A DNA stretch of 64,000 bases, from the NCBI GenBank assembly GCA_002964805.2, contig PUDQ02000001.1, positions 4,116,001 to 4,180,000 on the forward strand. The letters are read 5' to 3'. Of the stretch, positions 15,240-52,612 are shown one piece after another. The stretch comes from Trametes villosa. Taxonomy: Eukaryota > Basidiomycota > Agaricomycetes > Polyporales > Polyporaceae. The position numbers and the translations under genes were made by a program. The notes beneath the pieces were generated by a model. It saw nothing but the letters and a program-made list of their open reading frames with translations, ran no database searches and was not told the origin of the DNA. Positions within the stretch are counted from its first letter, which is position 1. Each line of letters starts with the position of its first letter.

Positions 15240-18200
15240 GGGGTGACAGTGACAGTCCGAACTCGAATCCAACCATGACCATCCCGCCAAAGACCAGAGG
15301 CTGACTTCATGGCTTCGTCGTCTCATGCCAGCCTCCCGGGGGAACGTAATCCTCGCCTCCTCCTCTCTTGGCTCCCATCGCCTCTTTCTCTGGACGTCCA
15401 TCCCCCTCCCTCTGGTTCTGCCGGCTCTTCCCCGCCCCCTCGTTCTCTCGTCGCGCTTGGTGTCGTCTGAGGTGACTCTGCCTCCGACACCGCCCACTTC
15501 TACTGGCATCTGCTCAGTGGGATGCGCGACTTGGGCTCTTGGGCTCGCAGCTTTGGCAGTACCAACCAGCCTTCGTCGACGCCTCAACGGCTCAATGGCC
15601 TGCTCGACGGAGGGCTCATGATCATGGAGGTTCACTTTGTCGACTAGGTCAAGAACGTCGACGAAGGGTTCGTGGAGAGAGGCTTTCGGATTCGGACTCG
15701 TATAGACGGTCGGAGGCACCTCAAAGTACGTTGCTCACCTCTTGTTGAAATCCCCTTGCTCATCGTCCAAAGCCTCCGACCACGTTCATCCTCGCGGGAA
15801 CCTGGACAAGCACGGTCGGCACTTGGTTCATCTGCGGCAAGCTTCGGTCAGCCATCACTCGAGAGCCCAACTAGTTCTGCAACTCGTCTGTCACCCTGGT
15901 CCAGCCGAGTCAATCATATCGGCTTTCAAGACCGCGACCATCCGCATCCTGGATCCGACCCCGGAACGCGGGCTAGGTCATGTCCACTCCTTCGACGGAC
16001 GACGTCTCGCAGCATTGCTCCTTGAGTGTCAACACTGGCTTATTGGCTTCTTGCCCTTCTCTTCTCCTGGCGACGACTCGGACTTGCTTGACTCCAGTAC
16101 CTGCTCAGCTTGTCCTCGTCTCATTATTCAACGCTTCGAGCCGCAGCTCGGTTATCCTCTTTCCGCCTGTTGCTCGAGTCTCCTTTCCGCTCTGGGGCTC
16201 CCTATTGCCCTCTTCCATGCGGCAGACTCTGGCGGCCCCTCCCTCGGCATTCTCGGGGTCGACAACCACTGCAGCTCGTGGCCTTCCTGGGACGTCTTCG
16301 CCAGCCATCCAGAAAACCGAAAAACATTGCCGTATAATCATCAAACCTCGAACAACAGCAGATAACGTCCGAAAATCCAGACATTCCTATCTCCCCTTCT
16401 CCCCTATAATATGTACGATTATACGTAGTAGTGCCCTTACCCCATATGATCCCGTAAGTTGACAGTCCTCTTCACACCACTTTTCAGTTTGCTAACCTCA
16501 GTACCGCAGCCCTCGCTTCGGTCCTACCGGCTTCGCTGCTCGACCGCTGCGACTCGCGATCTCGGTCGGCGCCGACCGACATCGCGACAAAACGTGGTCC
16601 ATTGGACCCGCCCGTTTCCTTCGCCGACGTCCCGCCGTATGTCAAGCAGACCTCGCCCAGTCTCTCCAGCAGCGCATCTCTCGGCAAGGCGACCCGTTCA
16701 TTACCCGTTCATTTCCTTCGACGCTCGACACGTACTGCACTGGCGGCCTTCTCAACCGTCATCCAGTGAGCGCGTGCTCGAGCGTCGAAGTGCGTGCGCC
16801 CCGCCACCTCAAGCCCGACACCTGCAGGGCCTTGGTTGGCACACGATCATGTTCATACCATCGGACGCTTCTTCGTCCGCCTCCGGGCCCATCCTCAACT
16901 CTCGTTGGGCCCTCTGTTCTTCTCGCTCATTCCTTCAACGTTCGATGCGTCCGACGCTGGCGGCTGCTCACCGTCATCCAGTGAGCTCGCGTTTGGTCGT
17001 TGAGGTGCCTGCGCCTCGTCAACCCACGCCCGACATGCAGTACGGCCTTGGCGACCGCTTGACTACTCCTCCCAGGCGATGCGTTGCCTCCCATGTGCCC
17101 TCCTTGTGCACTTCATCGCGCGCCTTCGGCTGCCCACTCCGACATTGGCAAGCTCGTCCGGATACGCCTTTTGTTCATTGTTCATCCTACATCAGGTGAG
17201 CCCGCACAGTCCGATCCAGGCCTAGCTCGAAAACTGACAATACCTTTGCTCCACATAGGCCTCCTCAGGACTTTGTTCGCGTACAGTTCTGGCGGTGACG
17301 GATGTTCCGTCTGTTCTCCCGGCGAGCCAAGTTCGCTAGAGCGTTGGCCTTGGTACCCCTGCTATCTGGTAAGTTCACGATTAAGTTCTGCGCCTTTTAG
17401 CGACTAATGCGCGTCTTCAGCCTCAAACTGGATACGGCGCGGCCGCATCCGCGTCGTGACTCCGGGGAGAAGCCGGTTCTCAGAGATATCGAGACCGATT
17501 CTCGCACTCGCCTCGAGCTTATCCCTTCCGACGTGGCAAGACCGTCCGGATAGGCTCTCCTTGCTCATCCCGCGCCTTGTGAGCTCACTTCAAGCCTTCT
17601 TTGTGATGACGACGCTTACTTCTCGCAGCCTAGCTCTCGACATATGCGCGCGTGCATATAACGCTCGAGAGGTGGAAGGTGCACCCACTGTCCGTCCAAG
17701 CGCGCCAAGGCCGCTCGGACGAGTTCATCGCTCCCTTCCCATCAGGTTGGTCTGCGGCTACTACGGCGCGTTGCACCAGACACTGACGCACATTATTCAG
17801 GCTCGAACTCGGTTCAACAGGTCCGCACAACCTGTCGCTCCGAGGGAGAGAAAGATGTCTTTCCGCGCCGCCTTCCATGCATAGGAGACGTCGCGGAGTC
17901 CCCACTGCCCCTTGTCGGACGTCGCAAACCTGACAAGGGGGTCTGAACCCCGTGCAGGTACGTGGCTCGCTTGCGCATTCGCAATCTATGCTTACTGGGA
18001 CATGCATCGCAGGTATAGCCTGCACACCGACTACGGTCCTCCGGAGGCATCCAACTCTCTGCCTCCCGCTACCCTCCTTCCTCGCTTTCGCCTCGCTATC
18101 AAGATCCGATATACACGATCTCGCGACGACCACACTCCGTCGACGGACCCGCCCGACCAGCGCCAGCCCTTGGGCCCATCTCTCCCCAACTCGCGCCGAC

Positions 18201-18655
18201 CCCGAAATCCTGCGACTGTACGGTGGCACGGCCAGCCACTGTCTCTCATGAGGAACCCAAAAACTCCCTCACGGGAGTACCCAGTGAGTACTACTCTCGC
18301 ATCCGCGTATAGACCTCGACTGACCGCGACCGCAGACGCGCAACCCCGAGGCCAGAGGTTGCACGTCAAAAGGAGTCTTCGGACTCCACCCGCGATCCCG
18401 GACTGGCTCCGGAGCTTGCTCCGCTGTGCTCATACGACGCCCCGGCGCACTCGCACCGACCATTCCATCCACACACGAAGCCGCCGCCGGTCGATACCGG
18501 CACGTGGATGTTGGCCTGTGGCCGGAGCCCCCTCATGGATCTTACTGGTTTTTCTCTTGTCCTTGGTCAATGTAGTAGGACTCGGGACTGGCGTTGCGTC
18601 CGACGCCAGTACCAGGATGAGGCTGCGCCACCAATATAGTCGTTTTGCACAGTGA
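15240..18655 (+). repeat. Hairpin-chain repeat element, copy A
   Basis: First of five related units. It starts indistinctly near 15240 and ends at the shared terminus ...TTTTGCACAGTGA. Hairpins seen: GGTGTCG 15459-15465 with CGACACC 15485-15491, enclosing GAGG/CCTC; CCCACT 15493-15498 with AGTGGG 15516-15521; CTTTGTCGAC 15635-15644 with GTCGACGAAG 15657-15666; a 16-bp stem at 16717-16732/16773-16789 with one bulge; GGACG 16863-16867 with CGTCC 16874-16878; CCCCTTGTC 17908-17916 with GACAAGGGG 17932-17940; ACTCCC 18263-18268 with GGGAGT 18273-18278; GCAACC 18340-18345 with GGTTGC 18357-18362; GGAGTC-TTCG-GACTCC 18372-18387; ACTGGCGT 18587-18594 with ACGCCAGT 18603-18610. Long open frames here are interrupted in the other copies and are not called as genes. 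It is the same subfamily as copy D. Confidence 0.8.
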
Positions 18656-18918
18656 TCCTGTAGCTTGTTTCGGATACGTCGGCCGGACTTACCGAACACT
18701 GAGGGTAAGCATGCGAGCGACTGTGAGAGGATCCGACTAAGTAGTGCAGCTCAGTGCGGGCGGGCGTCTGCTTCAAAGTCGGCGGGAACAAGACTTCTTC
18801 GTACTTGTGCGCGCGGGGGGCGTCGCTCATAGTGAGCAGCGCAGGTCGTAACATCACGGTAAATCAATCCAGGCCCGTGCTCGGAGGTGTGCGTAAGTGC
18901 CTTCGCGGCGGGCAAAGG
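18656..18918. repeat. Spacer between copies A and B, also present between C and D
   Basis: This non-element DNA matches 32758-33009 in inverted orientation; for example, 18841-18876 matches about 32790-32830. Its presence in both arms shows that the A-B pair was duplicated as one block, not that four elements inserted independently. Confidence 0.75.
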
Positions 18919-21900
18919 TGCCGACATTGAATGATATTAATTGCGGTGCTCGATAGCGCCGGGGCTGTCCCATCTGGGCAAGTACGATCGCATACACCCG
19001 CAGTTCGTTCAACGTTGTTCATGACCATCATCTCGCACATCTCCCCTTCCCTCTGTGCGCAAGCACTCATGCGTCTTACGCGGGCTCGAGACTTATATTC
19101 CTGCGGAGGGTGACGACCTCGGATGCAGAGTAGGCCGGATTTGAATCTCAACCACCCGCCGAATTTGGAGGGCGCCCGAACAACGGTCAGCCTCTGTGGC
19201 TGACATGCCAGCCGCCTCCTGCGCTGTCTAATATTCTGTTCCCGCACGTCTGGATGCTTTCGTCTCTTTCCCTCCTGCGACCACCACCCCCCATCTCTGG
19301 CTCTATCCTCGCCTCCTCCTGCTTGTCTATGGCCCACCTAGGTATCGTCTGAGGTGACTCTGCCTCCGATACCGCCCACCTCTTCCGGCATCTGCTCGGT
19401 GGGAGGTGTCATATGCTAGGCTCTTGGATGCTTGCTTGTGTTATTGCTAGCCTTCGTCGACGCCTCACCGGCTCAATGGCCCGCTCGACAAAGACCAACT
19501 GTGGTGTCTGTTTCCTCGACTAGCCAAGCACGTCGAGGGATGGGTGCAGAGACCGGTTACGTTCGGTTACTGTTACTAGACGGCTGGAGGCACCTCAAAG
19601 TACGTCGGTCGCATTCGTTTGGTCGCTCTTGCTGATCTATTACAGCCTCCGGCCATGTTCATCCTCGCGTCTGCCGTCCTTGTCTTGAGCTGCGCTACGA
19701 GCTGGTGCACTGTTCATCTCGTCTTCCGCCTGTCGCCCTAGTCTCCTCTCCGCTCTGGGGGATTATCAGCGTCCCCTCTTCCATGCGGCAGACTATGGTG
19801 GCCCCACCTCCGGCGTAGACAACCACTTCAGCTCGCGGCCTTCCTCGGACGTCTTCGCGACCCACCCAGAAAACCCGAAAACATTGCTCGATAATCATCA
19901 AACCTCGAACAAAAGTAGAAACTGTCCGATAACCCAGATCTTTCCTTTTCTTCTTCTCCCCCTTATAATATGTACGACTACGTAGTAGTGCCCTGCCCAT
20001 AGTGTTCCCGTGAGTTATTCATCCTTCATCATCCTCTTCGCTTCCATTGACCATCTTCGCATCTTAGCCCTCGCTTCTGTCCCTTCGGCTTCAACGCCCG
20101 ACCATCGCGACCCCCGTTCCCCTCGTCTCGCAAACTGCCACTCACGAGTTTGGTCGGCGCCGATCGATATCGTGTTTATCCTTTCCGCAGTCAACGAGAC
20201 CCAACCATCTCCCTCCCCGACGTCCCGCCGCCTGACAAGAAGACTCCGCCCGGTCTTCCCGACGGCGTACCTCTCGAGGACGAGATTGTCTGTTCATTCC
20301 TTCGACACTCGACACGTTCTGCGCTGGCGGCCGCTCACCGTCATCCAGCGAGTGCGTGTTCGAGCGTCGAAGCGCGTGCGCCACACCTTCAACTCAAGTC
20401 CGCCACCCTTTGCGGCTTCGGTGGGCGCTCGATATCACCTCGGCTAGTAGACGCTCTTCGTCTACCGCAAGAGCCCTCCTCAACTCATGTTGGGCCCCCC
20501 AATCATTTTCCTTACGCCCTTCAACTTTCGGCGCATCCGACACTGGCGGCTTCTCCCCGTCTCCCAGTGAGATCTTGTTCGACGGTTGAAGGGCGCGCGC
20601 CTCGCCACTCCAAGCTCGTTACCCCATACGGCCGTGGTGAACGCTCTTCGACTTCTCACCGACACTGCGTTCCTCAAGCAGCAGTCGCCCTTTCTATCTC
20701 TCGCGCGGCTCCGGCTATCCCCCTTGACATTGACAAGATCGTCCGGATGCTACGCCTCGCTCGCTCATCGACCATCCCGCATCTAGTAAGTGACGCCATT
20801 CTGCATATGTTATCTTCTGAACTCTGACAACGCTTTAGTCTGTTTAGGATCTCACGCGCGCGATCCGAAGAACGCCAGATGCCCCCTACCATCTTTGCAG
20901 GCGTGCCAATACCGCTTGGATACGCCTTGGTCTCCTGTTGACCTGGTGAGTCCACAGCTCTGACTAGTGCATCGCAGCCGCTGACGTTAACCTATCAGCC
21001 TCAACCTGGGTACGACGTGCGCGCGAACGCGTCTTCCTCGGGGCAAGGCTGGTTCTCAGGTGTACTGAGGACGATACTCAAGCTCGCCTCGAGCTTGTTC
21101 CATTCGATGTGACAAGATCATCCGGACAAGCTCTCCCTGATCGGCGCACACTTTGTGAGTAAGGATTCTGGCTGCGTTCCGTGCGTCCATACCAACACCT
21201 ATCATTCCAGCCACCGGCTCCTATGTTTCCGCATGCATATGGCAGTCGAGCACCGGACGACGTGTCCCCACTGTCCCCTCTGGCGTGCTAATACCACCCG
21301 GACAAGTGCATTGTTCCCTTTCGCACCCGGTGAGTTCGCTATCACATCGATGCCAGTACTCGAACCAGCCGCTGACACAAATGTTTAGATTCGAACTCGG
21401 CTCGCAGGTCTGCACAACCTGTCGCTCAGAGGGAGAGAAGGGTGCCCCTCCGCGCTGCCTTCTATGCATGGGAGAAAGCGCGGAGTCCCCACCGCCCCTT
21501 GTCGGACGTCAAACATCTGACAAGGGGGTCTGAACCCCGTGCAGGTACGTGCTACAGCTACACGCTCAGTTCAGATGCTTACTAGTATATGCTCCTCAGG
21601 TATAGCCTGCACATACACATTAGACCCCGGGAGGCGTCCTACCCACTGCCTCCCCACCACGCTTTCCATTCGCTATCAAGACTCGCCTTCTGGTATCTAC
21701 ACCGACGACCATACTCCGTCGCCCAACCAGCGCCAGCCAGTGGGCCCACTCTTCCCCTGCTGGCGCCGACCCAAAATCCTGCGGCTGTACGGTGGCTAGG
21801 CCGGCCACTGTCTTCCCTGAGGAACCCAAAAACCCCCTTACGGGAGTACCCAGTGAGTAGCATCCACATACCTCGCGCCTCGTTCCTGACTGACGCCTAG

Positions 21901-22222
21901 CTCAGACGACATCCTAGAGGCCAGAGGATGCTCGTTAAAAGGAGTCCGAGGACTCTACCCTGCGACTCCGGGCTGGCCCCGGAGTCGTCCACCAGTGCTC
22001 ATACGACGCCCCGGCGCCCTCGCACCGACCATTCCATCCACACCCAAGCCGCCGCCGGTCGATACCGGCCCGTGGATGTTGGCCTGTGGTCGGAGCCCCC
22101 TCATGGATCTTACTGGTCTTTCCCATGCCCTCGGTCAATGTAGTAGGACTCGCGGCTGGCGTCGGACGCAACGCCAGGACCAGATGAGGCTGCGCCACCA
22201 ATATAGTCGTTTTGCGCGGTGA
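18919..22222 (+). repeat. Hairpin-chain repeat element, copy B
   Basis: About 3.3 kb, same subfamily as C and E, beginning GTGCCGACATTG and ending ...TTTTGCGCGGTGA. Hairpins at positions equivalent to copy A: GGTATCG 19341-19347 with CGATACC 19367-19373; CCCACC 19375-19380 with GGTGGG 19398-19403; a 9-bp stem 19512-19520/19532-19540; GTAGACG 20447-20453 with CGTCTAC 20459-20465; a 12-bp stem containing CCCCTTGTC near 21494; CATCC 21910-21914 with GGATG 21926-21930; GGAGTC-CGAG-GACTCT 21941-21956; CTGGCGT 22155-22161 with ACGCCAG 22171-22177. Intron-like GT...AG blocks lie at the same places as in copy E. It lies head to tail behind copy A. Confidence 0.82.
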
Positions 22223-22275
22223 GCTAGTCAGTTTTGCGTCGGATGTGTTGAACATACCTCCCATGGCCAGGTACT

Positions 22276-23411
22276 ATTGTTGTGGGCTCAATGCTTTCAC
22301 ATCAAGTGTCTACGTTTGTCAACAACTCCGGGCTTCGGCAGGCGGGCTTATCCTCGCGCCGGATCCCATCGACTGACAGCTGCAGTGCGGGCGGAGTACA
22401 TGCTTGTAGCGAGTGCAGCGTATGTCTTCGGTACGACTCCGAGCCGCGTCTGAATCGAGCGGCGAGCGACGCGCGGGCCCGCACCCACTCTGACGCCCGC
22501 CACCCGCCCCCGTTCCTGGACCTCTCTGGACCCATCTCCATCGATCTCCCCGGGCCCCTATCTCCTCACATCGATCGCCCGCTGCACTCGGGAGTCGGGA
22601 TCTGGAACTCGAATCTGGCGGCGGCCGACGCGGTCAAGTCCCGAGGCCCGACACGGCCGATCGGCGAGAACGCTGAGGCTGGCGGGCGGCGGGCCCAATG
22701 AACGACGAGTACGGCGGACCCGCTGTGATCCCGGGACCCGGGGCGGGCGGGCCTGCCAGCTGTCAGGACTCAGTTACGCTGTCAGGATCCAGGAACTGAG
22801 AGGAACTGTCCGATGTCGTGAGCACGATGTCGAGGGCCGGCTTGGCGACGGCGGGAGCTGTGCTGAAGCTGTCAGCTGGAGGAATGTGCGAGACGCGGGC
22901 GGCGGGTGCGATGAACTTGAACGCGACCGATGTACACATGGTGGTCCTGTTCAGCTCCGAGCTGCCCAGCAGTTGAGCGTGCACGACGTCAAATGCACGG
23001 GAAAGTGAACGGCGATGATGGTATGGCAATTCATCCGATGCGCGATCGTATGTACTATATACAGGTAGTTGAGCAGCGGCCAAGAAAGAAACGGTAAGAA
23101 ACGGCCGGGAAGCGGTCAAAACAGAGCGTATCATTACAGCGAATCGTAACGGTCATTCCGAATATCGTAGCGGGCAGGCATGAGCGCGCACCTCGAGCAC
23201 CTCCTCCGACCCTGCCTCCGAAACCTCCTCCACCACAGCAGAGCGACTGACAAACGGACCCGGGATTGCGCCCCCGTCATCAAGGTATGTCGCAGTGCAT
23301 GCCCTGCCCTCCGCAGCCCCACCCTCGCCTTGCCCAGTATGTCCAAGCCAGGGGGCCCCGCGCCCCTAAAGACTCCTCCACAAGCAGCACTGAGACTAAG
23401 GCCGTTCAGGC
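22276..23411. other. Non-coding stretch between repeat arm and SYLF gene
   Basis: The left arm of the inverted duplication ends near 22275, where similarity to the other arm (GCGTCGGATGTGT block) stops. The rest is GC-rich with short frames. A 123-codon minus-strand frame at 22763-23134 has a weakly hydrophobic start but no domain and is not called. The 3' untranslated region of the SYLF gene lies at the right end. Confidence 0.4.
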
Positions 23412-29046: not shown

Positions 29047-29117
29047 TGCATTAAGGGGGAATCGAACCCCCGGCGGGTCGATGGCAACGACCCAGGTTAC
29101 CACTACCCCATTAATGC
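29047..29117 (-). tRNA. tRNA-Gly (anticodon GCC), second copy
   Basis: All 71 bases match the copy at 5666-5736, while the flanks do not match. The cloverleaf is the same, with anticodon loop TTGCCAT. A run of six T on the minus strand, about 22 bases after the 3' end (29019-29024), is a good Pol III stop. The gene sits just inside the right arm of the inverted duplication. Confidence 0.95.
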
Positions 29118-29449: not shown

Positions 29450-32400
29450 CACTGTGAAAAACGACTATATTGGTAGCGCAACCTCATCTGGTCCTGGCGT
29501 TGCGTCCGACGCCAGCCGCGAGTCCTACTACATTGACCAAGGACATGGGGAAAGACCAGTAAGATCCATGAGGGGGCGCCGACCACAGGCCAACATCCAC
29601 GGGCCGGTATCGACCGGCGGCGACTTCGTGTGTGGATGGAATGGTCGGTGCGAGTGCGCCGGGGCGTCGTATGAGCACAGCGGAGCAAATGCCGGAGCCA
29701 GTCCGGAATCGCGGGGGTGGAGTCCGAGGACTCCTTTTAACGAGCACCCTCTGGCCTCGGGGATGTCATCTGGGCTCGCTGTCAGTCGAAGGTCGTGCAC
29801 GAGATAGGAGTGCTACTCACTGGGTACTCCCGTAAGGGGGTTTTTGGGTTCCTCAGGGAAGACAGTGGCCGGCCTAGCCACCGTACAGCCGCAGGATTTT
29901 GAGTCGGCGCCAGCGGGGGAAGAGTGGGCCCACTGGCTGGCGCTGGTTGGGCGACGGAGTATGGTCGTCGGTGTAGATACCAGAAGGCGAGTCTTGAGAG
30001 CGAATGGAAAGCGTGGCGGGAGGCAGTGGGTAGGACGCCTCCCGGGGTCTAATGTGTTGGTGCAGGCTATACCTAAGGAGCATGATCCAGTGAGCAACTA
30101 TCTCGAGCAAGCAGCCATAGCACGCACCTGCACGGGGTTCAGACCCCCTTGTCAGATGTTCGACGTCTGACAAGGGGCGGTAGAGACTCCGCACTTTCTT
30201 CCATGCATAGAAGGCAGCGCGGAGGGGCGCCCTTCTCTCCCTCGGAGCGACAGGTTGTGCAGACCTGCGAGCCGAGTGCGAGTCTTGATGGTACGCATCA
30301 GCGGCTTGATCAAGTACTGGCGTTGATGTTGTAGCGGACTAACCGGATGCGAAAGGGAACAGCGCACATGTCCGGGCGGTGTTAACACGCCTAAGGGGAC
30401 AGTGGAGGCACGTCTTCCGATGCCCGACAGCCATATGCATGCGGAAACATAGGAGTCGGTGGCTGGAATGATAGGTGTTAGGATTGACGCACGGAACGCA
30501 GCCAGAATGGTTACTCACAAAGCGTGTGATGATCGGGGAGAGCTTGTCCGGATGATCTTATCACATCGGAGGGAACAAGCTCGAGGCGAGCTTGAGAATC
30601 GTCCTCAGTACACCTGAGAACCAGCCTTGCCCCGAGGAAGACGCGTTCGCGCGCACGTCGTACCCAGGTTGAGGCTGATAGGTTGACGTCAGCGGCTGCG
30701 ATGCACTGGTCAGAGCTGTGGACTCACCAGGTCAACAGGAGACCAAGGCGTATCCAAGCGGTATTGACACGCCTGCAAAGATGGTAGGGAGCATCTGGCG
30801 TTCTTCGGATCGCGCGCGTGAGATCCTAAACAGACTAAAGCTTTGTCAGAGTTCAGAAGACAACATATGCAGAATGGCGTCACTTACTAGATGCGGGATG
30901 GCCGATGAGCGAGCGAGGCGTAGCATCCGGACGATCTTGTCAATGTCGAGGGGGATAGCCCGAGCCGCGCGAGAGATAGAAAGGGCGACCGCTGCTTGAG
31001 GAACGCAGTGTCGGTGAGAAGTCGAAGAGCGTTCACCACGGCCGTAAAGAGCTTGAGGTGGCGAAGCGCGCACCCTTCAACCGTCGAACACGATCTCACT
31101 GGGAGACGGGGAGAAGCCGCCAGTGTCGGATGTGCCGAAAGTTGAAGGGCACAGAGAAACGAACGAGGAGCCCAACAAACGTTGAGGAGGGGCTCCTGGG
31201 GCGGACGAAGAGCGTCCACTAGTTGAGGTGGTATCGAGCGCCCACCGAAGCCGCAAAGGGTGGCGGACTTGAGTTCAAGGTGTGGCGCACGCGCTTCGAC
31301 GCTCGAACACGCGCTCGCTGGATGACGGTCGAGCGGCCGCCAGCGCAGAACGTGTCGAGCGTCGAAGGAATGGACAGACAATCTAGTCCTCGAGAGGCAC
31401 GCAGTCGGGAAGACCGGGCGGAGTCTTCTTGGCAGACGGCGGGACGTCGGCGAGGGAGGTGGTTGGGTCTCGTCGACCGCGGAAGGGATAAACACGAGAT
31501 CGGTCGGCGCCGACCAAACTCGTGAGTGGCAGTTTGCGAGACGAGGGGAACGGGGGTCGTCATGGTCGGGCTTTGAAGCCGGAGAGACCGAGGCGAGGGC
31601 TAAGATGCGAAGATGGTCAATTGAAGCGCAGAGGATCATGAAGGATGAATGACTCACGGGAACACTATGGGCAAGGCACTCCTACGTAGTCGTACATATT
31701 ATAAAGGGGAGAAGGAAAGAGGAAAGATCTGGGTTTTCGGACGGTTTCTACTTTTGTTCGAGGTTTGGTGATTATCGAGCAATGTTTTCGGGTTTTCTGG
31801 GTGGGTCGCGAAGACGTCCAAGGAAGGCCGCGAGCTGAGGTGGTCGTCGACACCGAAGGTGGGGCCGCCATAGTCTGCCGCATGGAAGAGGGGACACTGA
31901 TGATCCCCGGAGCGGAAAGGAGACTAGGGCAACAGGCGTACGACGAGATGAACAGTGCACTAGCTCGTAGCGCAGCTCAAGACAAGGACGGCAAACGCGG
32001 GAATGAACATGACCGGAGGCTGTAATGGATCAGCAAGAGCGACCAAACGAATGCGACCGACGTACTTTGAGGTGCCTCCAGCCGTCTAGTAGCAGTAACC
32101 GAACGTAACCGGTCTCTGCACACATCCCTCGACGTGCTTGGCTAGTCGAGAGAATGGACACCAAGGTTGGTCTTCGTCGAGCGGGCCATTGAGCCGATGA
32201 GGCGTCGACGAAGGCTAGCAGTACCACAAGCGAGCACCCAAGAGCCTAGTATATGACACTTCCCACCGAGCAGATGCCGGAAGAGGTGGGCGGTATCGGA
32301 GGCAGAGTCACCTCAGACGATACCTAGATGGGCCATAGACAAGCAGGAGGAGGCGAGGATAGAGCCAGAGATGGGTGGTGGTCGCAGGAGGGAAAGAGAC

Positions 32401-32757
32401 GAAAGGCATCCAGAAGTGTAGGAGCAGGGTATTAGCTAGCGCAGAGGGAGGCTGGCATGTCAGCCGTCATGGAGGCTGACCGTTGTTCGGGCGCTCGCTG
32501 CGTTCGGCGAGTGGTTGAGATTCAACAAATCCGGCCTACTCTGTATCCGAGCTCGTCACCCATCGCAGAAGCATAATTCTCGAAGCCGCAGAAGACGCAT
32601 GAGTGCTTGCGCACAGAGGGGAGGGGAGATGTGCGAGATGATGGTCATGAACAACGTTGAACGAACTGCGGGTGTGTGCAATCGTACTTGCCCAGATGGG
32701 ACAACCCCGGCGCTGTTATCGGCGAGCACCGCAATATGTCGGCACCTTTGCCCGCCG
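29450..32757 (-). repeat. Hairpin-chain repeat element, copy C
   Basis: About 3.3 kb and inverted relative to A and B. It is closest to copy B. Hairpins seen on the + strand: GGAGTC-CGAG-GACTCC 29719-29734; a 12-bp stem around 30151-30178 whose sides are CCCCTTGTCAGA and TCTGACAAGGGG; an 8-bp AGGAGCCC/GGGCTCCT stem near 31170-31200; a 9-bp stem 32126-32134/32146-32154; CCCACC 32262-32267 with GGTGGG 32285-32290; GGTATCG 32292-32298 with CGATACC 32318-32324. Read on the minus strand, it has the same order of parts and the same intron-like segments as B and E. No frame is open along the whole unit. Confidence 0.82.
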
Positions 32758-36000: not shown

Positions 36001-36602
36001 CTTGACCTAGTCGATGAAGTGAACCTCCAGAATACCCTCCGTCGCGCGGGCCATTGAGCCGGTGAGGCTTCGACGAAGGGGAACACTCCCAAGCAAGCAT
36101 CCAAAAGCCTAGTACATGGCACCTCCCACCGGGCATATGCCGAAAGAGGTGGGCGGTATCGGAGGCAGAGTCACCTCAGACGATACCTAGATGGGCCACA
36201 GACCAGCAAGAAGAGACAAGGATAGCGCCGCAAAGGGGGGGTGGTGGCGGTCGGGGAGCAAGAGGCAAGAAAAATCTAACAGCGCAAAGAGCAGGATCAG
36301 GCGGGGGCGGCTGGCATGTTCATGTCAGCCATGGAGGCTGACGCGCTGACGGTTCAAGTTCCTCGGGCGCTCGCCGAGTCCGGGTGTGCCAGTTGGGATT
36401 GCAATCCAGCCTGGCCTGGGATCGAGCTTGTTACTAAGTAGTCCAACGCCGCACACGAGTTTTCGTATCCACAGGAATCGTGTGAGTGTGTGCAAGGGGG
36501 GCGAGGTTTGGTAGATGGTGGACGTGAACAGCGAGGTGTGGGCGTTTGTGATCGTAGTACTTGCCCCGATGGGACAACCTCGGCGCCGTCGAGCACAGCA
36601 AT
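33010..36602 (-). repeat. Hairpin-chain repeat element, copy D
   Basis: About 3.6 kb, inverted, and the longest and best-preserved member of the A/D subfamily. It has a clear 5' end on the minus strand (ATTGCTGTGCTCGACGG) and the shared 3' end at 33010. Hairpins on the + strand: GGAGTC-CGAG-GACTCC 33279-33294; GGACGA 34781-34786 with TCGTCC 34791-34796; TTCATCGAC 35989-35997 with GTCGATGAA 36010-36018; GGTATCG 36155-36161 with CGATACC 36181-36187. Compared with B, C and E it keeps an extra block of several hundred bases near its 5' third (about 35230-35880). Confidence 0.82.
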
Positions 36603-36605
36603 CCA

Positions 36606-44861: not shown

Positions 44862-46682
44862 TTACAGCGTATTGGAGTCAAACATGGTGACGCTAACGTT
44901 CTGGACGAAGTGCGACAGCCGTGCTGTGTAGAAACCCAACGCTGCGCTCGCCTCGTCCGCCTCGTGGGTCCGCGTGGTAGAAGGATAGCGTTGCCAGATA
45001 ATGAAGGATATCACCAAGGACAGCAGCGAACGTCCTAGCTGAGCCTGGCGCTCTTTCAACGTGCGCGCAATGACATCCGCCGTCTCGCCCTCCCTCTCCT
45101 CCACACTGTTCCGGTCGCGTCGGTATTTGAGAATGGTCAGCTCTTCAAGGGATGGACAGACGACAGCGCCCGACGAGGGCGCTGTGCCTGCAAGAGCGTT
45201 GAGGAGGGTAATCCAATGGTTTCCAGACGGTCCGAAGTCTACAGGCCCAAGTTGCAAGTGGGCAAGATGAGGAAAGGCGTCCAGGACGTATAGTAAATCG
45301 GGCACGTCGGCTTGGGGCGTGGCCAGCATGAGACGCAGCGCTGTAATCGACTGCACCCCATAGAAGGCGCGGTGGATCTGGTGAGCGACGCCGATGCTCT
45401 CCTGCCGCACTGTCAGCAGCTTGCGGCCGCCCTGGAAGGTCTGTATGGTATATTTGGGGATGTCCGCGCTGATCTCGATACGCACTGGCAGTACCTCCTG
45501 CGCGTAGGTGCGGACGTGCACCTGGTCCGCGCCATCGACGGCAGATACAGTGAAGTGTTCGGGCAGGAGATGGCGCAGTCGTCCTTCAACTTCAACATCC
45601 GGGCGTTTACGGTAGGAATAAGGGGGAGAATAGTCGATGAACACCTGCGTGGAGGGACTGAACCGGACGTGCTCCAGGAAGGACTTGATGGACTCCGTAG
45701 TCGCACCTGATAGCTTGAGGTACACCAGGAGCGGGAAATGGAGCGGCGCGGTATCGCTCAATGGAGACCACTTTGCGGGCAGAACTGGAGCGTTCGGTGC
45801 GATACTGAGCCATCGGAGCCGTTTGGAGCAACGACTGAGTGCTTGACGGAGGGAAGAGGCGACTTCTGATTTGGAGTGGATCGCCGAGAGGACGCGGAGT
45901 TTCTCCAGTGATTGGGGCACGAGGAGTGGGAGGAGCTCAGGTGGGCTTACAAGCTCCCGGAGACGAGGGAGAGCGGCATCAATTGCGAACTCCCGAAGAT
46001 GAGGGAGAGCGGCGTCGATTGCGAGATCTTCGTCCGCGATGAGATCGAAGTGCATTCCGAAGGAGTATCGGCCGCAGGAGAGACGCAAGGCGTAGAGGTT
46101 TGTGAACTGGCCGCTCGTGAGGAGCGAGTGCAGCTCCTCGTCGATCAAATCCAGTGACAGGTGGAGGTGGGATACCCGGTGGAGATGCGGGGCCATCATC
46201 TCTCCGTACAAGAGATCGCGTCGAGGAACGAAGGGCATGAGCTCAAATGTATGTGAGCCGGAACGGTAGAGGAGGACCTTCACTAGCTCGGGCTTGTTGT
46301 ACACGTGGGGTGTAGCGAGCATGTCCGCCCAAAACCCCGACGCCTGTAGGAGGATGGATCGCCAGTGCCGGCAGACATGCAGCAGTCTCAGCGCTCGCAT
46401 CGACTGGGATGCACGGCCGGAAACAAGGAGGATGTGCGTCAAGAGCTCGACGGGTAGATAGCGGTGTATGGTGGCGCTAGTGTAGTTTTGGAGGGCCTTC
46501 ATGGCGGCGATGTGAAGTGGATCCCTCTCCCCTTGAGCGGCCTCATGCGCTTCAGAGACACGAAGGGCTGCGAAAACGTGCAATTGCTCGGCTGAAAATG
46601 CGGTATTGATGTCCACAAAGTCGGGAAAGGATAGCCCTTCGCTGAGAAGGTCATGGCGACTCCTAGGAAGGTCGCCGTACAT
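44862..46682 (-). CDS. F-box protein, copy 1 of a local cluster
   Basis: A single exon encodes about 606 aa if started at MYGDLPRSRHDLLSEGLSFPDF, which aligns with the MRG-type starts of copies 2 and 3. An in-frame ATG at 46892 would add 70 unaligned residues. An F-box-like segment at about residues 70-120 reads ATIHRYLPVELLTHILLVSG, RALRLLHVCRHWRSILLQASGFWADML. The rest has irregular leucine-rich repeats such as HLHRVSHLHLSLDLIDEELHSLL and DAFPHLAHLQLGPVDF, and ends in a conserved block SLLSLVISFI...GFYTARLSHFVQNVSVTMF. In the family, such proteins recruit substrates to SCF ubiquitin ligases. Targets cannot be predicted. A short internal repeat, DAALPHLREFAIDAALPRLREL, is visible. Confidence 0.8.
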   Translation of the reverse strand: MYGDLPRSRHDLLSEGLSFPDFVDINTAFSAEQLHVFAALRVSEAHEAAQGERDPLHIAAMKALQNYTSATIHRYLPVELLTHILLVSGRASQSMRALRLLHVCRHWRSILLQASGFWADMLATPHVYNKPELVKVLLYRSGSHTFELMPFVPRRDLLYGEMMAPHLHRVSHLHLSLDLIDEELHSLLTSGQFTNLYALRLSCGRYSFGMHFDLIADEDLAIDAALPHLREFAIDAALPRLRELVSPPELLPLLVPQSLEKLRVLSAIHSKSEVASSLRQALSRCSKRLRWLSIAPNAPVLPAKWSPLSDTAPLHFPLLVYLKLSGATTESIKSFLEHVRFSPSTQVFIDYSPPYSYRKRPDVEVEGRLRHLLPEHFTVSAVDGADQVHVRTYAQEVLPVRIEISADIPKYTIQTFQGGRKLLTVRQESIGVAHQIHRAFYGVQSITALRLMLATPQADVPDLLYVLDAFPHLAHLQLGPVDFGPSGNHWITLLNALAGTAPSSGAVVCPSLEELTILKYRRDRNSVEEREGETADVIARTLKERQAQLGRSLLSLVISFIIWQRYPSTTRTHEADEASAALGFYTARLSHFVQNVSVTMFDSNTL

Positions 46683-46994
46683 GAGGTCGTAGTCGGGTTT
46701 TCGGGCTGGGAATGTCTGGTGGGATGTCTGTTGGAAGGAAAGCGGTAAGGGTAGGCGGCCGAGTCGAAAGGGCAGTCGACACTTGAAAGTAGAGAAGAAG
46801 ACTAGTCCAGGTCGCCACCAGCCAGCTGTCGTAGTGACGCCAATCGATCTGCGTGGGAAAGAGCTCCGACAGGCTCCGACATACCAATTCATTATTAAAG
46901 CCGTACAGGATCATATATGACTTGGTGACGTCGTTACAGTAAGTAGTATCCCTCTTGGGCACCGTAGCGTGACACAGAGGGTGCTACATATTAT
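46683..46994. other. Upstream region of F-box copy 1
   Basis: About 310 bases separating F-box copy 1 and copy 2. They hold the copy 1 promoter and the copy 2 3' flank. No other feature is seen. Confidence 0.35.
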
Positions 46995-48755
46995 CTACAG
47001 TGTGCATGAATCGGAGCATAATGTAGTGACACGAATGTCCTGAACGCAATGGGACAACCGTTCTGTGTAGATCCCCAACGCGGCGTCCGCTCCGTAGGAC
47101 TGCGTGGAGGAAGCGCCATATAGCCCGGGAATGAAGGATACCACGAAGGAGCGGAGCGAGTGTCCCAGCTGCTTCTGACGCTCTTCCAACACAGGTGCGA
47201 TGACATCTGCCGTCTCACCCTCCGCCTTCTCTACGTCGATCATATCGCGCCGCTCCTTGACGACGGTCAGCTCCTCCAAGGAAGGACAGACGACGGCGCC
47301 CGATGATGGTGCTGGGGAAGCAAGCGCGATGAGGTGCGCATTCCAGTATGGGTTGAAAGGCCGGAAGCGGATGGGCCCGAGCTGGAGGTGCGTCAGCCGC
47401 GGAAGCGCATCCAGGACGAGGGGCAGGTCGGGCACGTCCCCGGGTACGGCGATCGTGAGGCGCAACGTCGTGATCGAGGGCACCCCGAGGAAGACGCGGT
47501 GGACGTCGCGACTGATGTTGCGAGACTCCTGCTGTACTGCCAGCAGCTCACGGCCGCCTTGGAAGGTCTGCACGTCGTACTTGAGTCGCATCGTCCCCGA
47601 GTAGGTGCGGATGTGCAGTCGGTCCGCACCGTCGACAGTAGACCTAGCCAGGCGGTCTGGGAGGAGGTGGCGCATCCGCTCTTGTACCGCGCTCAATGGG
47701 CCTGATGAATCATGAAGGAATTTAATGGTGAGTCGGGTGGAAGGAGGAAACTCGACGTGCTCCAGGAAGAATACCGCCGAGTCCGCTTCGGGAAATAGCA
47801 GCTTGAGGTGCTCAAGAACCACAAAACGAAGTGGCGGGACGTCGCCCGGCGGAAACCACCACGCGATGAAGGTATGGCGCGCGAAGGTCACAGTAAGCTG
47901 TCGAAGGTGCCTGGAGCAGCGGGCAAGAGCAACACTGCGGCTTGTTTGAGCGCCCTCGGGAGAAAAATCGGAAGGTGAGAGAACGGTGAGTTTCTGCAGT
48001 GTCTGGGTGACGAAGTACGGTAAGAGCTCAGGTGGGCTCTCGAGCTCCCTGAGGGAAGGGAGTGCGGTTTCGATCATCGATGGATCGTTCATGAGAGAGC
48101 GGAGCGGTTTCCCGTTCAAGCTTCTCTGGGAGGAGAGGTGCAAGGTTTGGAGGCTCGCGAACTGGCCGCGGAACAAGAGCGAGTGCAGCTCCTCGTCAGT
48201 GAGACCCACAGGCGCCTGGAGGTAGGAAATCCGGTGGAAGTGTGGAGCCAGGATCTCTTTATACACTCCTGCCAACAGGCTTTGGCGAGAGAGACGCGAC
48301 GTGATCTGGATGAGCCGGGAGCCGGAGTGACGGAGGAGAATCTCCACTAGTTCGGGCTTGTAGTATACCGCTTGTACGGCGAACATGTCCGCCCAGAACT
48401 CGGATGCCTGTAGGACGACGGATCGCCAGTGCCGGGAGACATGCAGTAGCCTCAACGCCCTGATCGACCGCCATTCCCGCCCAGTCAAAACGAGAATGTG
48501 CGTCAGGAGCTCGATGGGTAGACGGCGGTGAATAGTGGGAACGGCATGGTTCCAACAGGCCATCAGAGCGGCGACGTGAAGCGGGTCCTGCTCCCTGAGT
48601 CTGGCGAGAGCCCAAAGCTCAATCTCTTGCGCGTCGGAGATAGGAACGGTCGTAAGAGCAAGCGTTTCCAGGGATGAAAGCGCGATATCGATTTCGGCGA
48701 AGTCTGGAAAAGACCGCTCTCCGCGTTCACGTCGACCCCGAGGAATGCCGCGCAT
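46995..48755 (-). CDS. F-box protein, copy 2 of a local cluster
   Basis: A single exon of about 586 aa, starting MRGIPRGRRERGERSFPDFAEIDIALSSLETL. The F-box-like segment, about residues 75-125, reads PTIHRRLPIELLTHILVLTGREWRSIRALRLLHVSRHWRSVVLQASEFWADMF. Leucine-rich stretches follow, such as HFHRISYLQAPVGLTDEELHSLLF and DALPRLTHLQLGPIRF, then SSGAVVCPSLEELTVVKERRD and the C-terminal block LRSFVVSFIPG...YTERLSHCVQDIRVTT. A longer in-frame start at 48950 exists but adds unaligned sequence. It is a tandem paralogue of copy 1, about 300 bp away in the same orientation. Confidence 0.8.
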   Translation of the reverse strand: MRGIPRGRRERGERSFPDFAEIDIALSSLETLALTTVPISDAQEIELWALARLREQDPLHVAALMACWNHAVPTIHRRLPIELLTHILVLTGREWRSIRALRLLHVSRHWRSVVLQASEFWADMFAVQAVYYKPELVEILLRHSGSRLIQITSRLSRQSLLAGVYKEILAPHFHRISYLQAPVGLTDEELHSLLFRGQFASLQTLHLSSQRSLNGKPLRSLMNDPSMIETALPSLRELESPPELLPYFVTQTLQKLTVLSPSDFSPEGAQTSRSVALARCSRHLRQLTVTFARHTFIAWWFPPGDVPPLRFVVLEHLKLLFPEADSAVFFLEHVEFPPSTRLTIKFLHDSSGPLSAVQERMRHLLPDRLARSTVDGADRLHIRTYSGTMRLKYDVQTFQGGRELLAVQQESRNISRDVHRVFLGVPSITTLRLTIAVPGDVPDLPLVLDALPRLTHLQLGPIRFRPFNPYWNAHLIALASPAPSSGAVVCPSLEELTVVKERRDMIDVEKAEGETADVIAPVLEERQKQLGHSLRSFVVSFIPGLYGASSTQSYGADAALGIYTERLSHCVQDIRVTTLCSDSCTL

Positions 48756-49138
48756 GGGGCTGCAGTGGGCTCGATTGTTGCGATGGCTAGGTGGGAATGG
48801 GATATCCGTTGTGACAGGGGTGGTAAATGTGTGCGCTGTGCTTGAAGGTAGGACGGTAGGCACTCGAGAACGCGGAAGAGGGGCAAGTCGCTGCAAGTCA
48901 GCCACCCACAGGAGTGCTAGTGATGATCGGTCTTCGTGAGAATGATGCACAGCCGAGGATAAAACTCGTCATACTGACATCTCGCATACAGTGATGTACA
49001 CCGTACTTAGCTTGGCATCGAGAACTGCTGGTAGGCTGTATTCCTCAGTTGGCGGGGCGAGGCTGCACTGTGAGGTAGTGGGTACTCGAACAGACGGAGT
49101 TTCGAACACTACTTACTTAGGCTGAAGTTGTACAATGC

Positions 49139-49327
49139 CAGGACATATAAGCTAGTGGCATTACAAGCTAAAGACCGGCGATTGGGGGTCGCGCTGACGC
49201 TCTGAGCGTACGGGGATAAGCGTGCTGTATAGAGGTCCACCGCTGTGTTCTCCTCATAGGTCGGAGTGAAGAAGGAGATACGGCTAGGGATGTCGATGAA
49301 GGATAGTGCGAAGGAGTAGCGCAATCA
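49139..49327 (-). pseudogene. F-box gene fragment (C-terminal block only)
   Basis: The reading LRYSFALSFIDIPSRISFFTPTYEENTAVDLYTARLSPYAQSVSAT matches the last 50 or so residues of the intact copies, for instance LRSFVLAFIPRQLPFSTPSYEVDAAVNFYAARLLPFVQSVSTT. Similarity stops at 49328, where repeat copy E begins, and no upstream part of this gene is found on the far side of E. This is therefore a truncated remnant. Confidence 0.75.
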
Positions 49328-49328
49328 G

Positions 49329-52300
49329 TGCCAAACATTGCTGTGCTCGACGGCGCCGAAGTTGTCCCATCTGGGCAAGTACGATCGCATACACCCCCAG
49401 GTTGTTGTTTACGCCCATCATCTAGCAGATCTGGCCTCCTCTCTGCGCGTACTCATGCGGCTCCTACACGTTCTAGAACTGGTGTCTGGCGGCTGGCTAG
49501 CAAGCTTGGACGCAGGCTAGGCTGGATTGCAATCCCAACCACCCGCCGGACGCGGCGAGCGCCCGAACAACGGTCAGCCTCCGTGGCTGACATGTCTGCC
49601 CCCTCCTGCACTGTTTATCACCCTGCCCTCTGCGCTTCGGGATGTCTTTCGTCTCTTGCCCCCCAACGACCACCACCACCATCTCTGGCTCTATCCTCGC
49701 CTCCTTCTGCTTGTCTATGGCCCATCTAGGTATCGTCTGAGGTGACTCTGCCTCCGATACCGCCCACCTCTTCCGGCTTTTGCTCGGTGGGAGGTGCCAT
49801 GTACTAGGCTTTTGGGTGCTTGCTTGTGGTATTGGTAGCCTTCGTCGACGCCCCACCGGCTCAATGGCCCGCTCGACCTACACCAACCGTGGTGTCTGTT
49901 CTCTCGACTAGCGAAGCACGTCGAGGGATGGCTGTGGAGACCGGTTTTCTTTTGTTACTGTCACTAGACGGCTGGAGGCACCTCAAAGTACGTCATTCGT
50001 CTTCGCTTGGTTGCTCTTACTGATAGGCTACAGCCTCCGGCCATGTTCATCTTCGCGTCTGCCGTCCTGGTCTCGAGATGCGCTACGAGCTGTTACGCGG
50101 GTTGCTCTCTGACGCCTGCCATCCTGGTCTCCTTTCCGCTCCGGGGATTATCAGCATCCCCTCTTCCATGCGGCAGACTATGGCGGCCCCACCTTCGGCG
50201 TCGACAACCACCTCAGCTCGCGGCCTTCCTTGGACGTCCTCGCGACCCACCCAGAAAACCCGAAAACATTGCTCGATAATCATCAAACCTCGAACAAAAG
50301 TAGAAACCGTCCGAAAACCCAGATCTTTCCTTTCTCCTTCTCCCCCATATAATATGTACGACTACGTGGTAGCGCCCTGCCCATAGTGTTCATGTAAGTG
50401 GTTCGTTCTTCACGAGGCTCCTCACACAGGCTAACCTTCTTTGCGCCTTAGCCCTTGCTTCGGTCCTTCTGGCTTCAATGCCCGACCGTCGCGACCCCAG
50501 TTCCCCCTCGTCTCGAAAACTGCCACTCACGAGTTCGGTCGGCGCCGACCGATTTCGTGTTTACCCCTCCCGCGGTCAACGAGACCCAATCTTCCTCCTC
50601 GCCGACGCCCTGCCGCATGTCAAGCAGACTCCGCCCGGTCTCCCCGGTGGTGGGCCTGTCGGCGACTTGCAAGCGACTTGTTCATTCCTTCGACGCTCGA
50701 TACGTTCTGCGCTGGCGGCTGCTCACCGTCATCCAGCGAGTGCGTGCTCGAGCGTCGAAGCGCGAGCGCCCCGCCAACTCAAGTCCGCCTCCCCTTGCGG
50801 CTTTGGTGGGCGCTCGATGTTACTCCGACTAGTGGACGCTCTTCGTCCACGCAGGAGCCCCTCCTCAACTGCTGTTGGGCCCCTCCTTCATTTTCCTTAC
50901 GCCCTTCAACTTGCGGCACATCCGACATTGGCGGCTTCTCACCGTCTTCCAGTGAGATCGTGTTTAATGGCTGAAGAGCGCGTGCGCCGCCAATTCAATC
51001 TTGTCACCCCATACGACCTTGGCGAGCACGCTTTGACTTCTTCCCGACGCTGTGTTCCTCAAGCAGTAGTCGCCCTTGCTATCCGCCCCCGCACGGCTTC
51101 GGCTATCCCCCTTGACATGGACAAGATCGTCCGGATACGCCTCGCTCGCTCATCGATCATCGGTCACCCCGCATCTGGTGAGTTCTTTCGACGTGCGCTT
51201 GGCTTTCTCTGCGTTCTGACAATGTTTGTCTAGGTCCGCTCAGGGACTCAATCGCACAATCCCGAGACAGCCGGATGCCCCAACCATCTCTACAGGCGTG
51301 TTAATCCCGCTTGGACTCGCCTTGGTCTCCTGTTTATCTGGTAAGTCCGCAGCCAGGTCTGGCGCATCCTAGTTACTGAAGCCTATCGCTCAGCCTCAAC
51401 CTGGGTATGGCATGTTTGCGATCACGTCTTTCTCAGGCCGGGGCCGGTTCTCAGGAGTACTGAAGCCGATGCTCAAACTCGCCTTGCGCTTGTTCCCTCC
51501 GACGTGACAAGACCGTCCGGACAAGCCCTCTGTTATCACGCGTCACGTAAGCCCTTCTCGCCATCGTCGACGACGCGATTCTCATACCTATCTTCTCAGC
51601 CATCCATCCACACCTATGTTTTCGTATGCATAGGGCTGTCGAGCACCGGAAGACGCGTCCCCACTGTCCCCTCAGGCGTGTTAACACCGCCCGGACAAGT
51701 GCACTGTTCCCTTTCGCACCCTGTGAGTCCGCTATCGCATCGATGCCAGTACCCGATCCAGCTGCTGATGCACATCCCTAGACTCAAACTCGGCTCGCAG
51801 GTCTGCACAACCTGTCGCTCCGAGAGAGAGAGAGAAGGGTGCCCCTCCGCGCTGCCTTCTATGCATGGGAGAAAGCGCAGAGTCCCCACCGCCCCTTGTC
51901 GGACGTCGAACATCTGACAAGGGGGTCTGAACCCCGTGCAGGTACGTGCCACGGCTTCTTGCTCGCGATAGTTGCTTACTAGATCACACTCCTTAGGTAT
52001 AGCCTGCACAACACACATTAGATCCCGGGAGGGGTCTTACCCACTGCCTCCCCGCCACGCTTTGATTCGCTCTCAAGACCCGCCTTCCAGTCTCTACATC
52101 GACGACAATACTCAGTCGCCCAACTAGCGCCAGCCATCGGGCACACGCTTTCCCAGCTGGCGCCGACTCAAAATCCTGCGGCTGTACGGTGGCTAGGCCG
52201 GCCAATGTCTTCCCTGAGGAACCCAAAAACTCCCTTACGGGAGTACCCAGTAAGTATTGCTCCTATCTCGTCCACAATCCTCAACTGACAGTCACCCAGA

Positions 52301-52612
52301 CGACATCCTGGGGGCCAAAGGATGCTCGTCAAAAGGAGTCCCCGGACTCCACCCCCGCGACTCCGGGCTGGCCCCGGAGCTCGCCTCTCTGTGCGGATAC
52401 GACGCCCAGCGCCTTGCGCCGACCACTCCATTCACACACCAAGCCGCCGCCGGTCGATACCGGCGTGGATGTTGGCCCGTGGTCGGCGCCCCTCATGCTC
52501 CATACTGGTTTATCTCTTGTCCTTAGTCAATGTAGGGCACGAGTCTGGCGGCGGACGCGACGCCGGGACCAAGATGAGGTTGCGCTCAATGATTAGTCGT
52601 TTCGCACAGTGA
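49329..52612 (+). repeat. Hairpin-chain repeat element, copy E
   Basis: A solo copy inside the F-box cluster, starting GTGCCAAACATTGCTG and ending TTTCGCACAGTGA. Intron-like segments with GT...AG ends lie at 49988-50033, 50394-50451, 51178-51233, 51341-51393, 51547-51599, 51723-51781, 51942-51996 and 52250-52299 (46-59 nt). Several have branch-site-like CTGAC or CTAAC near the 3' end. Hairpins: GGTATCG 49729-49735 with CGATACC 49755-49761; TCTCTCGAC 49900-49908 with GTCGAGGGA 49920-49928; GTGGACG 50832-50838 with CGTCCAC 50844-50850; GGAGTC-CCCG-GACTCC 52335-52350; CATCCT/AGGATG around 52306-52326. It gives an independent comparison for the other four copies because it lies outside the inverted duplication. 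Confidence 0.83.

Follow-up and report, generated by a model that had tools for sequence, protein, structure and literature searches.

A multi-copy family of putative spliced, structured noncoding RNA genes in the agaricomycete Trametes villosa

Introduction

RNAs of the roX/Xist type are long noncoding transcripts that are spliced and that bind proteins through repeated, structured modules. GOLLD, ROOL, and OLE are bacterial noncoding RNAs with many conserved helices, described as RNA-only homo-oligomers on the basis of cryogenic electron microscopy (PMC12286853). In fungi, Gao, Jones and Rivas (2021) found 17 conserved structural RNAs through covariation (PMC8216456); by the account given there, the database of 1,371 genomes is all Ascomycota, and the finds are small nucleolar RNAs (snoRNAs), intergenic RNAs, and elements of untranslated regions or introns. 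In a polypore, the long intergenic noncoding RNAs (lincRNAs) of Ganoderma lucidum form a transcript catalogue (PMC4059649), and a search for terms in the main text gave no mention of secondary structure or multi-copy. Here we analyzed a 64,000-nucleotide window of the Trametes villosa genome (GenBank assembly GCA_002964805.2, contig PUDQ02000001.1, positions 4,116,001 to 4,180,000 of the forward strand), in which five related elements, copies A to E, are very probably members of a multi-copy family of spliced, structured noncoding RNA genes. A first-pass annotation of this DNA had described the five as a repeat in which the two sides of short hairpins change together, and had proposed selection on base pairing in an RNA.

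Results

Copies A to E align over nearly their whole length at 69–91% identity, in agreement with the five-copy repeat reported earlier (Table 1). With copy A as a DNA query, we obtained 64 matching stretches in the genome (46.7 Mb in 140 contigs, the source of all copies discussed here). Collecting and aligning them, as had been suggested, gave 15 near-complete type I genes (A–E plus F–K and M–P). The family also has six longer type II genes. Both counts are lower bounds, the search scoring only its best candidates. The type I genes lie at 4.03–4.22 Mb of contig C1 (12 of 15) and on contigs C47, C79, and C103, and the type II genes at 4.25, 4.27, and 4.29 Mb of C1, on C20, and on C64, which carries two copies that are 97% alike; family fragments also occur on C79, C99, and C104. 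Both types have the first hairpin, introns I0 and I6 with their junction stems, a hairpin that we call module 1, and parts of the 3′ region. New relative to the earlier annotation are the introns, the family members beyond A–E, type II as a subfamily, and the repetition of modules. Individual copies differ in layout: in G, about 1.4 kb separates the first 109 nt from the remainder, and C, M, and O, which belong to the clade of E, have A-like 3′ ends, a mosaic that probably arose by gene conversion between copies. A short derivative (locus L019, 4505–4942) consists of two recognizable type I pieces (A 1877–1991 and 3201–3416) about 100 nt apart, and a weak type II match beyond the known copies (locus L029, 4044–4168; C1 4341.5 kb), which contains no module 1 match, is possibly a third, more distant family member.

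Type I genes contain up to eight short introns of spliceosomal type, about 53 nt long, with diverged interiors between conserved blocks. Over the eight aligned places, all 116 intron instances start with GT and 107 end with AG at a fixed column. A CTRAY branch motif lies near the 3′ end of 68 of the 116 introns versus 2.9% of 1,156 exon windows, and the looser YTNAY is found in 108 versus 26% of the exon windows. Intron interiors are more diverged than exons in each of the 105 copy pairs, with a median exon/intron ratio of 0.49; a snoRNA host gene, in which introns are conserved and exons are not, was rejected on this result. All eight places are occupied in 13 copies. J and K lack I6 exactly, with a clean exon join left behind, and lack I1 together with a block of about 370 alignment columns; because type II genes have I6, it was probably lost in J and K. 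We take these elements to be spliceosomal introns on the strength of their sequence signals and of this one clean loss.

A family of many copies, whose homology ends sharply at the 3′ end in most of them, could also be a non-autonomous transposable element with structured ends that owes its conservation to recent spread. Indeed, 99 of the 105 copy pairs have no flank homology on each side (over 60 bp, within 600 bp), and an RNA-mediated event could have removed the intron so exactly from J and K. However, introns are retained in nearly all copies, exons are constrained relative to introns, 15 of the 21 copies sit in a single cluster (C1 4.03–4.30 Mb), and the flanks that closer pairs share (A/F, B/C/M, H/I, and J/K; A/D/F and E/N/P) fit segmental duplication. 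The first-pass annotation had allowed that the coding frame of a known transposon might explain the sequence, but the five open reading frames (ORFs) examined in A, B, and E contain no transposon domain. Nor was a transposase domain found in these five and 10 flanking ORFs, terminal inverted repeats and target-site duplications not having been searched systematically. Overall, we regard a mobile-element origin as improbable.

The exons themselves appear to be noncoding. Indels in multiples of three make up only 21 of 126 exon indels in nine close pairs, with a share that varies from 0 of 11 in B/C to 6 of 14 in H/I; 3-periodicity of substitutions is absent in six copy pairs (p 0.47–0.94). We projected four long ORFs, one each from A, C, E, and J, on the other copies; read continuously, each met 1–10 stops in all of the other 14, and divergence is near flat over the codon positions of these ORFs (for C, 0.167, 0.153, and 0.179). 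A Pfam scan of the five genomic ORFs of A, B, and E gave as its best result one weak match (E 0.09), and a search with a 248-residue spliced ORF gave no relative at E 10. A protein-coding gene family was thus rejected for want of a shared ORF, of indels in threes, and of codon periodicity. A decayed protein-coding family that kept its introns deserves separate consideration. Basidiomycete protein genes typically have short exons and introns of about 53 nt, part of the 3′ exons holds an open frame common to C and D, and the longest ATG ORF of the spliced sequence lies above the 95% point of mononucleotide shuffles in 8 of the 15 copies. Against decay stand the indel and periodicity results, the four long ORFs, all of them closed in the 14 other copies, codon positions that diverge alike, and exons that are twice as conserved as introns and whose stems covary, and we give it hardly any weight.

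Covariation was assessed on the alignment of the 15 spliced type I copies. Among 338 pairs in 49 stems, 42 show Watson–Crick changes on both sides, whereas tree-simulated nulls (n = 40) averaged 11.0 such pairs (standard deviation 3.4, maximum 19) among 248 pairs in 37 stems; double changes therefore make up 12% of the real and 4% of the null pairs, given the larger number of stem pairs in the real alignment. Twelve stems have two double changes under the real pairing rule (null 2.0, maximum 6), and the excess was smaller under an 'antisense wobble' rule (8 stems; null mean 3.2, maximum 8). For an out-of-sample test, we took the consensus stems of one clade that were 6 bp or longer and scored them in the other, with controls in which partners were re-paired among pairs of the same identity, so that column variability and the clade split were retained. 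We counted 46 Watson–Crick double-change states versus 22.5±3.8 in the controls, and 32 versus 16.4±3.5 in the reverse direction; none of 300 controls reached the observed value in either direction, and the same held at minimum lengths of 7 and 8. These tree nulls and re-pairings replaced a control with swapped pairing rules, which was dropped because the C-rich composition confounds it ({AC,GT}+GC gave 243 stems versus 116 for the real rule). The covariation is significant for the stems as a set, not pair by pair.

The paired changes singled out in the first-pass annotation are present in the copy alignments. The clearest stem has an outer pair in three states: G-C in A, A-T in D, and C-G in both B and E. 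Likewise, CATCC/GGATG alternates with CAACC/GGTTG, GGTATCG/CGATACC with GGTGTCG/CGACACC, and CCCACC/GGTGGG with CCCACT/AGTGGG, and the GGAGTC/GACTCC stem has varying four-base loops; a further change, given earlier as GTGGACG/CGTCCAC versus GTAGACG/CGTCTAC, was found as TGGACG/CGTCCA versus TAGACG/CGTCTA. When single elements were folded, 7 of 10 had z below −2.

Module 1 is a hairpin of about 93 nt with the core GTCTCCTTTCCGC...GCGGCAGAC. Each type I gene has one copy of it, and the six type II genes have 5, 5, 6, 4, 6, and 5. A search of 31 sources returned 46 distinct matches (E 2.3e-16 or better), counting once a copy that lies in two overlapping loci and ignoring one match at E 0.99; most matched sequences had also gone into building the model. 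For 39 aligned copies, RNAalifold gave 20 pairs, eight of which have changes on both sides and one of which is flipped from U-A to A-U. Paired cells amount to 95.0%, versus 25–52% with a slid partner and 89.4% after shuffling, and double-change cells number 62 versus 21.3 in shuffles. Folded singly, the D copy adopts the consensus (z −3.1) and one type II copy comes close to it (z −2.1); the E copy does no better than shuffles (z −0.8). On the branches of the tree, events leaving Watson–Crick pairing led to G.U 36.6 times versus 10.0 for A.C, compared with 60:69 in unpaired columns (Fisher p 0.00014, on rounded parsimony averages). Because RNAalifold, the source of the structure, favors G.U, this bias is only suggestive of the sense strand being the RNA. 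The strand signal comes from module 1 alone: there is no clear excess of G.U over A.C in the stems of the 15-copy alignment (209:150 versus 146:115 in the null) or out of sample (90:71 and 67:49 versus 97:81 and 74:56 in controls).

In module 1, the arms are conserved and the terminal loop differs between copies in both sequence and length. With up to six such hairpins of about 93 nt per gene, the transcript could be a polycistronic precursor of microRNA-like small RNAs (milRNAs). However, a milRNA hairpin would be expected to pair almost without a break over some 20 bp or more, and in module 1 asymmetric internal loops (5x1 and about 3x8) interrupt the stem and leave no long duplex intact; in addition, many hairpins of different shapes are conserved too. 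We therefore consider a role as small-RNA precursor unlikely. The letters of the internal loops are conserved and pyrimidine-rich (CUCCUUUC, CUCUUCCA). On the 3′ side of module 1 lies an exon block whose A-rich first part has a conservation of 0.87 versus 0.78 for the average exon; TATAATATGTACGA follows the A-rich part, and the block is absent from J and K.

Module 2 combines an outer stem of up to 17 pairs with an inner CRCTGG/CCAGYG stem. It is found twice per type I gene, the second being truncated in J and K, and has one match in five of the six type II genes. Our set comprised 28 type I copies (27 distinct rows) and excluded type II matches as well as the truncated copies of J and K. Paired cells reach 92.4%, versus 28–40% when slid, a comparison favored by drawing the structure from copy A, and 88.4% when shuffled; double-change cells number 35 versus 14.3 in shuffles. 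Among the paired changes are a flip from U-A to A-U, seen in J and K, and, in the inner stem, a replacement of A-U by G-C.

Two stems span exon junctions. The 9-bp I0 stem has one arm where the exon preceding I0 ends and the other where the following exon begins; in 21 copies drawn from both types (15 distinct rows), pairing holds in 97.8% of its cells, versus 24–59% slid and 95.3% shuffled, with U-A replaced by C-G in five distinct rows. Alone, it folds with z −3.3, and its G.U versus A.C strand test is not significant (p 0.19). The I6 stem has a compensatory change to GTGCGG/CCGCAC in copy M and a mismatch in type II copy Q. In the predicted fold, the arms of both stems are adjacent only after removal or looping-out of the intron. 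Junctions are not clearly enriched in stems (2 of 8 fall in stems of 8 bp or longer versus 15% of all positions), and the fold therefore seems to ignore intron sites instead of marking them.

The modules and junction stems bear on the alternative raised in the first-pass annotation, quasi-palindrome (template-switch) repair, which would keep the arms of DNA hairpins complementary with no function in RNA. Such repair also gives paired changes in short arms, the stems that we found are mostly local, and module 2 has no significant bias of G.U over A.C (p 0.49). Yet it leaves unexplained the introns with conserved splice signals in noncoding sequence, exons that evolve at half the intron rate in all 105 pairs, stem arms split by introns, and the G.U-over-A.C bias of module 1. 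Repair of this kind is, in our view, a very unlikely source of the pattern.

The family was compared with known RNAs, as the earlier annotation had advised. Against Rfam 15, the only match in the whole window (searched as genomic, unspliced sequence) is U2, outside the copies, and no family reaches its gathering score in them; at E up to 1, there are two matches in the type II locus L026 and one in copies A and B, all far below gathering. GOLLD, ROOL, and OLE have Rfam models, and none of these matched in the window, L026, or copies A and B. Pattern scans gave no match in viral contigs or prokaryote genomes, a distant search of phages with copy E gave none, and no description of such a family was found in the open-access literature searched.

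Several other genes lie near the copies. In the window, a U2 spliceosomal RNA gene (5875–6063) is a full-length Rfam match, and there are two tRNA-Gly(gcc) genes on the minus strand (5665–5736 and 29047–29117). Copy E is flanked by four long minus-strand ORFs (44862–57763), three of them 51–52% related and the fourth 32–36%; two have F-box matches, one of these below the Pfam cut-off, and the other two none. The best named matches of the F-box-like neighbor protein are in Trametes versicolor (34–36% identity), and the top-scoring named relatives of RPB2 come from agaricomycetes. Among the loci examined, close relatives of these proteins occur only around copy E, with weaker relatives elsewhere in the genome, and we rejected them as linked genes, as we did a link to pheromone receptors, whose matches sit on another contig. 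Genes with a HET (heterokaryon incompatibility) domain lie 174 bp from family fragments on C79, C104, and C99 (loci L019, 2601–4331, L020, and L021) and about 0.6 kb from copy I (C1:4024731–4026446); as a general link they are not convincing, being near few copies only, and could be there by chance. An IRE1-like ORF with protein kinase and Ribonuc_2-5A domains lies about 0.5–0.6 kb upstream of copies K and J (L018, 5439–6851, and L017, 5581–6843), the domains being those of a Pfam scan on L018 only.

Table 1 Positions, within the window, of the type I copies and of their predicted elements. Copies A, B, and E are on the plus strand, C and D on the minus strand.
Feature	Copy A (+)	Copy B (+)	Copy C (−)	Copy D (−)	Copy E (+)	Remarks
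Putative RNA gene, type I	15249–18655	19122–22222	29450–32547	33010–36422	49509–52612	A: conserved 5′ block to conserved 3′ end; weaker homology upstream as far as 18919 (B), 32757 (C), 36602 (D), 49329 (E)
First two hairpins (GGTATCG/CGATACC, CCCACC/GGTGGG)	15459–15521	19341–19403	32262–32324	36125–36187	49729–49791	
Three-state covarying hairpin	15636–15665	19512–19540	32125–32153	35989–36018	49900–49928	
9-bp stem over I0 exon junction	15708–15781	19582–19654	32011–32083	35881–35954	49970–50042	
Intron I0	15726–15772	19600–19645	32020–32065	35890–35936	49988–50033	GT...AG; within loop of 9-bp junction-spanning stem
Module 1	16163–16250	19726–19818	31848–31939	35409–35498	50112–50203	
Exon block 3′ of module 1	16303–16452	19860–20008	31659–31806	35207–35358	50245–50392	First ~70 nt ~44% A
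Intron I1					50394–50451	
Module 2, first copy	16716–16790	20300–20372	31294–31367	34869–34943	50688–50760	13-bp stem plus CRCTGG/CCAGYG
Module 2, second copy	16931–17004	20517–20590	31076–31149	34655–34728	50902–50975	
Intron I2					51178–51233	Acceptor choice ambiguous in some copies
Intron I3					51341–51393	
10-bp covarying stem, GAGCTTGTTC/GGACAAGCTC type	17515–17557	21091–21133	30540–30582	34110–34152	51486–51528	E copy folds weakly alone, z −1.60
Intron I4					51547–51599	
Intron I5					51723–51781	
12-bp stem CCCCTTGTCNGA/TCTGACAAGGGG	17908–17940	21495–21527	30145–30177	33728–33760	51892–51924	
GTGCAG|GTATAGCCTGCAC stem over I6 exon junction	17952–18025	21539–21612	30060–30133	33640–33716	51936–52009	
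Intron I6					51942–51996	Exactly absent from J, K
Intron I7					52250–52299	
CATCC/GGATG and GGAGTC/GACTCC hairpins	18340–18388	21909–21957	29718–29766	33278–33325	52303–52351	E copy: z −0.70 folded alone

Discussion

The proposal of the first-pass annotation that base pairing is under selection in an RNA finds support in the covariation of the stems as a set, the slow exons, the junction stems, and the bias of module 1. The introns strengthen it: their aligned interiors diverge at about double the exon rate, and the stems of the exons are preserved. Covariation, for which the annotation had suggested a test, is significant at the level of the set, but no single pair stood out in the simplified R-scape-style test that we used, an all-pairs G-test with average product correction and Fitch-based nulls on the tree.

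Several results weigh against reading the family as structured RNA genes. In that all-pairs test of the 15 copies, none of 606,385 local pairs reached E<0.05, which we read as low power because the tree has one deep split. For module 1 (39 copies), none of 4,005 pairs did so, and the four top pairs lie outside the structure; when its 20 structure pairs were taken alone, two passed under a rate-heterogeneous null and none under a uniform one, and 9 and 4 non-structure pairs, respectively, match the scores of structure pairs. Compared with shuffles, pairs changed on both sides are in weak excess in module 1 (8 versus 5.8, with 28 of 500 shuffles as high) and in module 2 (8 versus 5.6; 35 of 500), as are the pair types of module 1 (24 versus 21.0; 19 of 500). 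The pair types of module 2 do not exceed shuffles (201 of 500 as high), and neither do those of the I0 stem (500 of 500), in which a single pair has changed on both sides (466 of 500); the shuffles for all three elements ignore the relatedness of the copies. In several b copies, the pairing of module 2 is being lost, and 3 of the 10 elements folded singly are not beyond z −2 relative to shuffles. The regular expressions for intron ends were composed after the sequences had been seen, although the column-based intron counts lean on them only for the choice of column. The copies, all from one genome, swap sequence among themselves, as seen in the mosaic 3′ ends, and some may be dead, because J and K lack the block of about 370 columns. 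The long ATG ORFs of 8 of the 15 spliced copies, given above, belong on the same side.

If the family consists of RNA genes, RNA polymerase II would transcribe about 3 kb (type I) or about 5 kb (type II), and the spliceosome would remove up to eight introns from type I transcripts. The joined exons would then fold into a chain of hairpins, two of them over exon junctions. Pyrimidine-rich loops suit PTB- or KH-type proteins, and the mature RNA might be a multivalent scaffold or decoy that holds one copy of an RNA-binding protein per module, with contacts through the conserved internal loops CUCCUUUC and CUCUUCCA. We make this proposal because a module with conserved pyrimidine-rich loop letters and a variable terminal loop is copied one to six times per gene. 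A candidate multivalent protein binder of this kind is the likeliest of the mechanisms that we considered, although we hold it only tentatively; a small-RNA precursor, an RNA-only particle, and an RNA acting in cis at the cluster are the alternatives.

How conserved structure in long noncoding RNAs should be detected is disputed ('Thirteen dubious ways to detect conserved structural RNAs', PMC11234323). About 21 paralogues in one genome offer a natural alignment for testing such structure, and the family presents a case in which two stems would need splicing to meet. Module 1, with its 46 distinct copies, is suited to pulling down a protein partner. It is possible, though short of an even chance in our judgment, that the family represents an undescribed class of giant structured RNA in eukaryotes, multi-exon and nuclear, with a functional fold assembled by splicing, hairpins that close over exon junctions, and modules that expand and contract between paralogues, acting in mushroom-forming fungi as a multivalent ribonucleoprotein or an RNA-only particle and forming a eukaryotic counterpart of the ornate RNAs of bacteria.

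Among fungal RNAs, those of Gao, Jones and Rivas share with the Trametes family a conserved structure, but the latter is a multi-exon, multi-copy family in an agaricomycete (PMC8216456). The Ganoderma lucidum lincRNAs, compared here by description only, are likewise long, intergenic, and noncoding in a polypore (PMC4059649). The closest systems in architecture, which we do not claim as relatives, are GOLLD, ROOL, and OLE on the one hand and roX-like RNAs on the other. As described for the former (PMC12286853), the Trametes RNAs would be large and have many conserved helices; unlike these bacterial RNAs, they would be nuclear, with spliceosomal-type introns, about 21 copies, and repeated modules. 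The roX/Xist type shares the architecture that we adopt as a working model, with no relationship implied; whereas RNAs of that type come from one or two loci, those of Trametes would form a multi-copy family.

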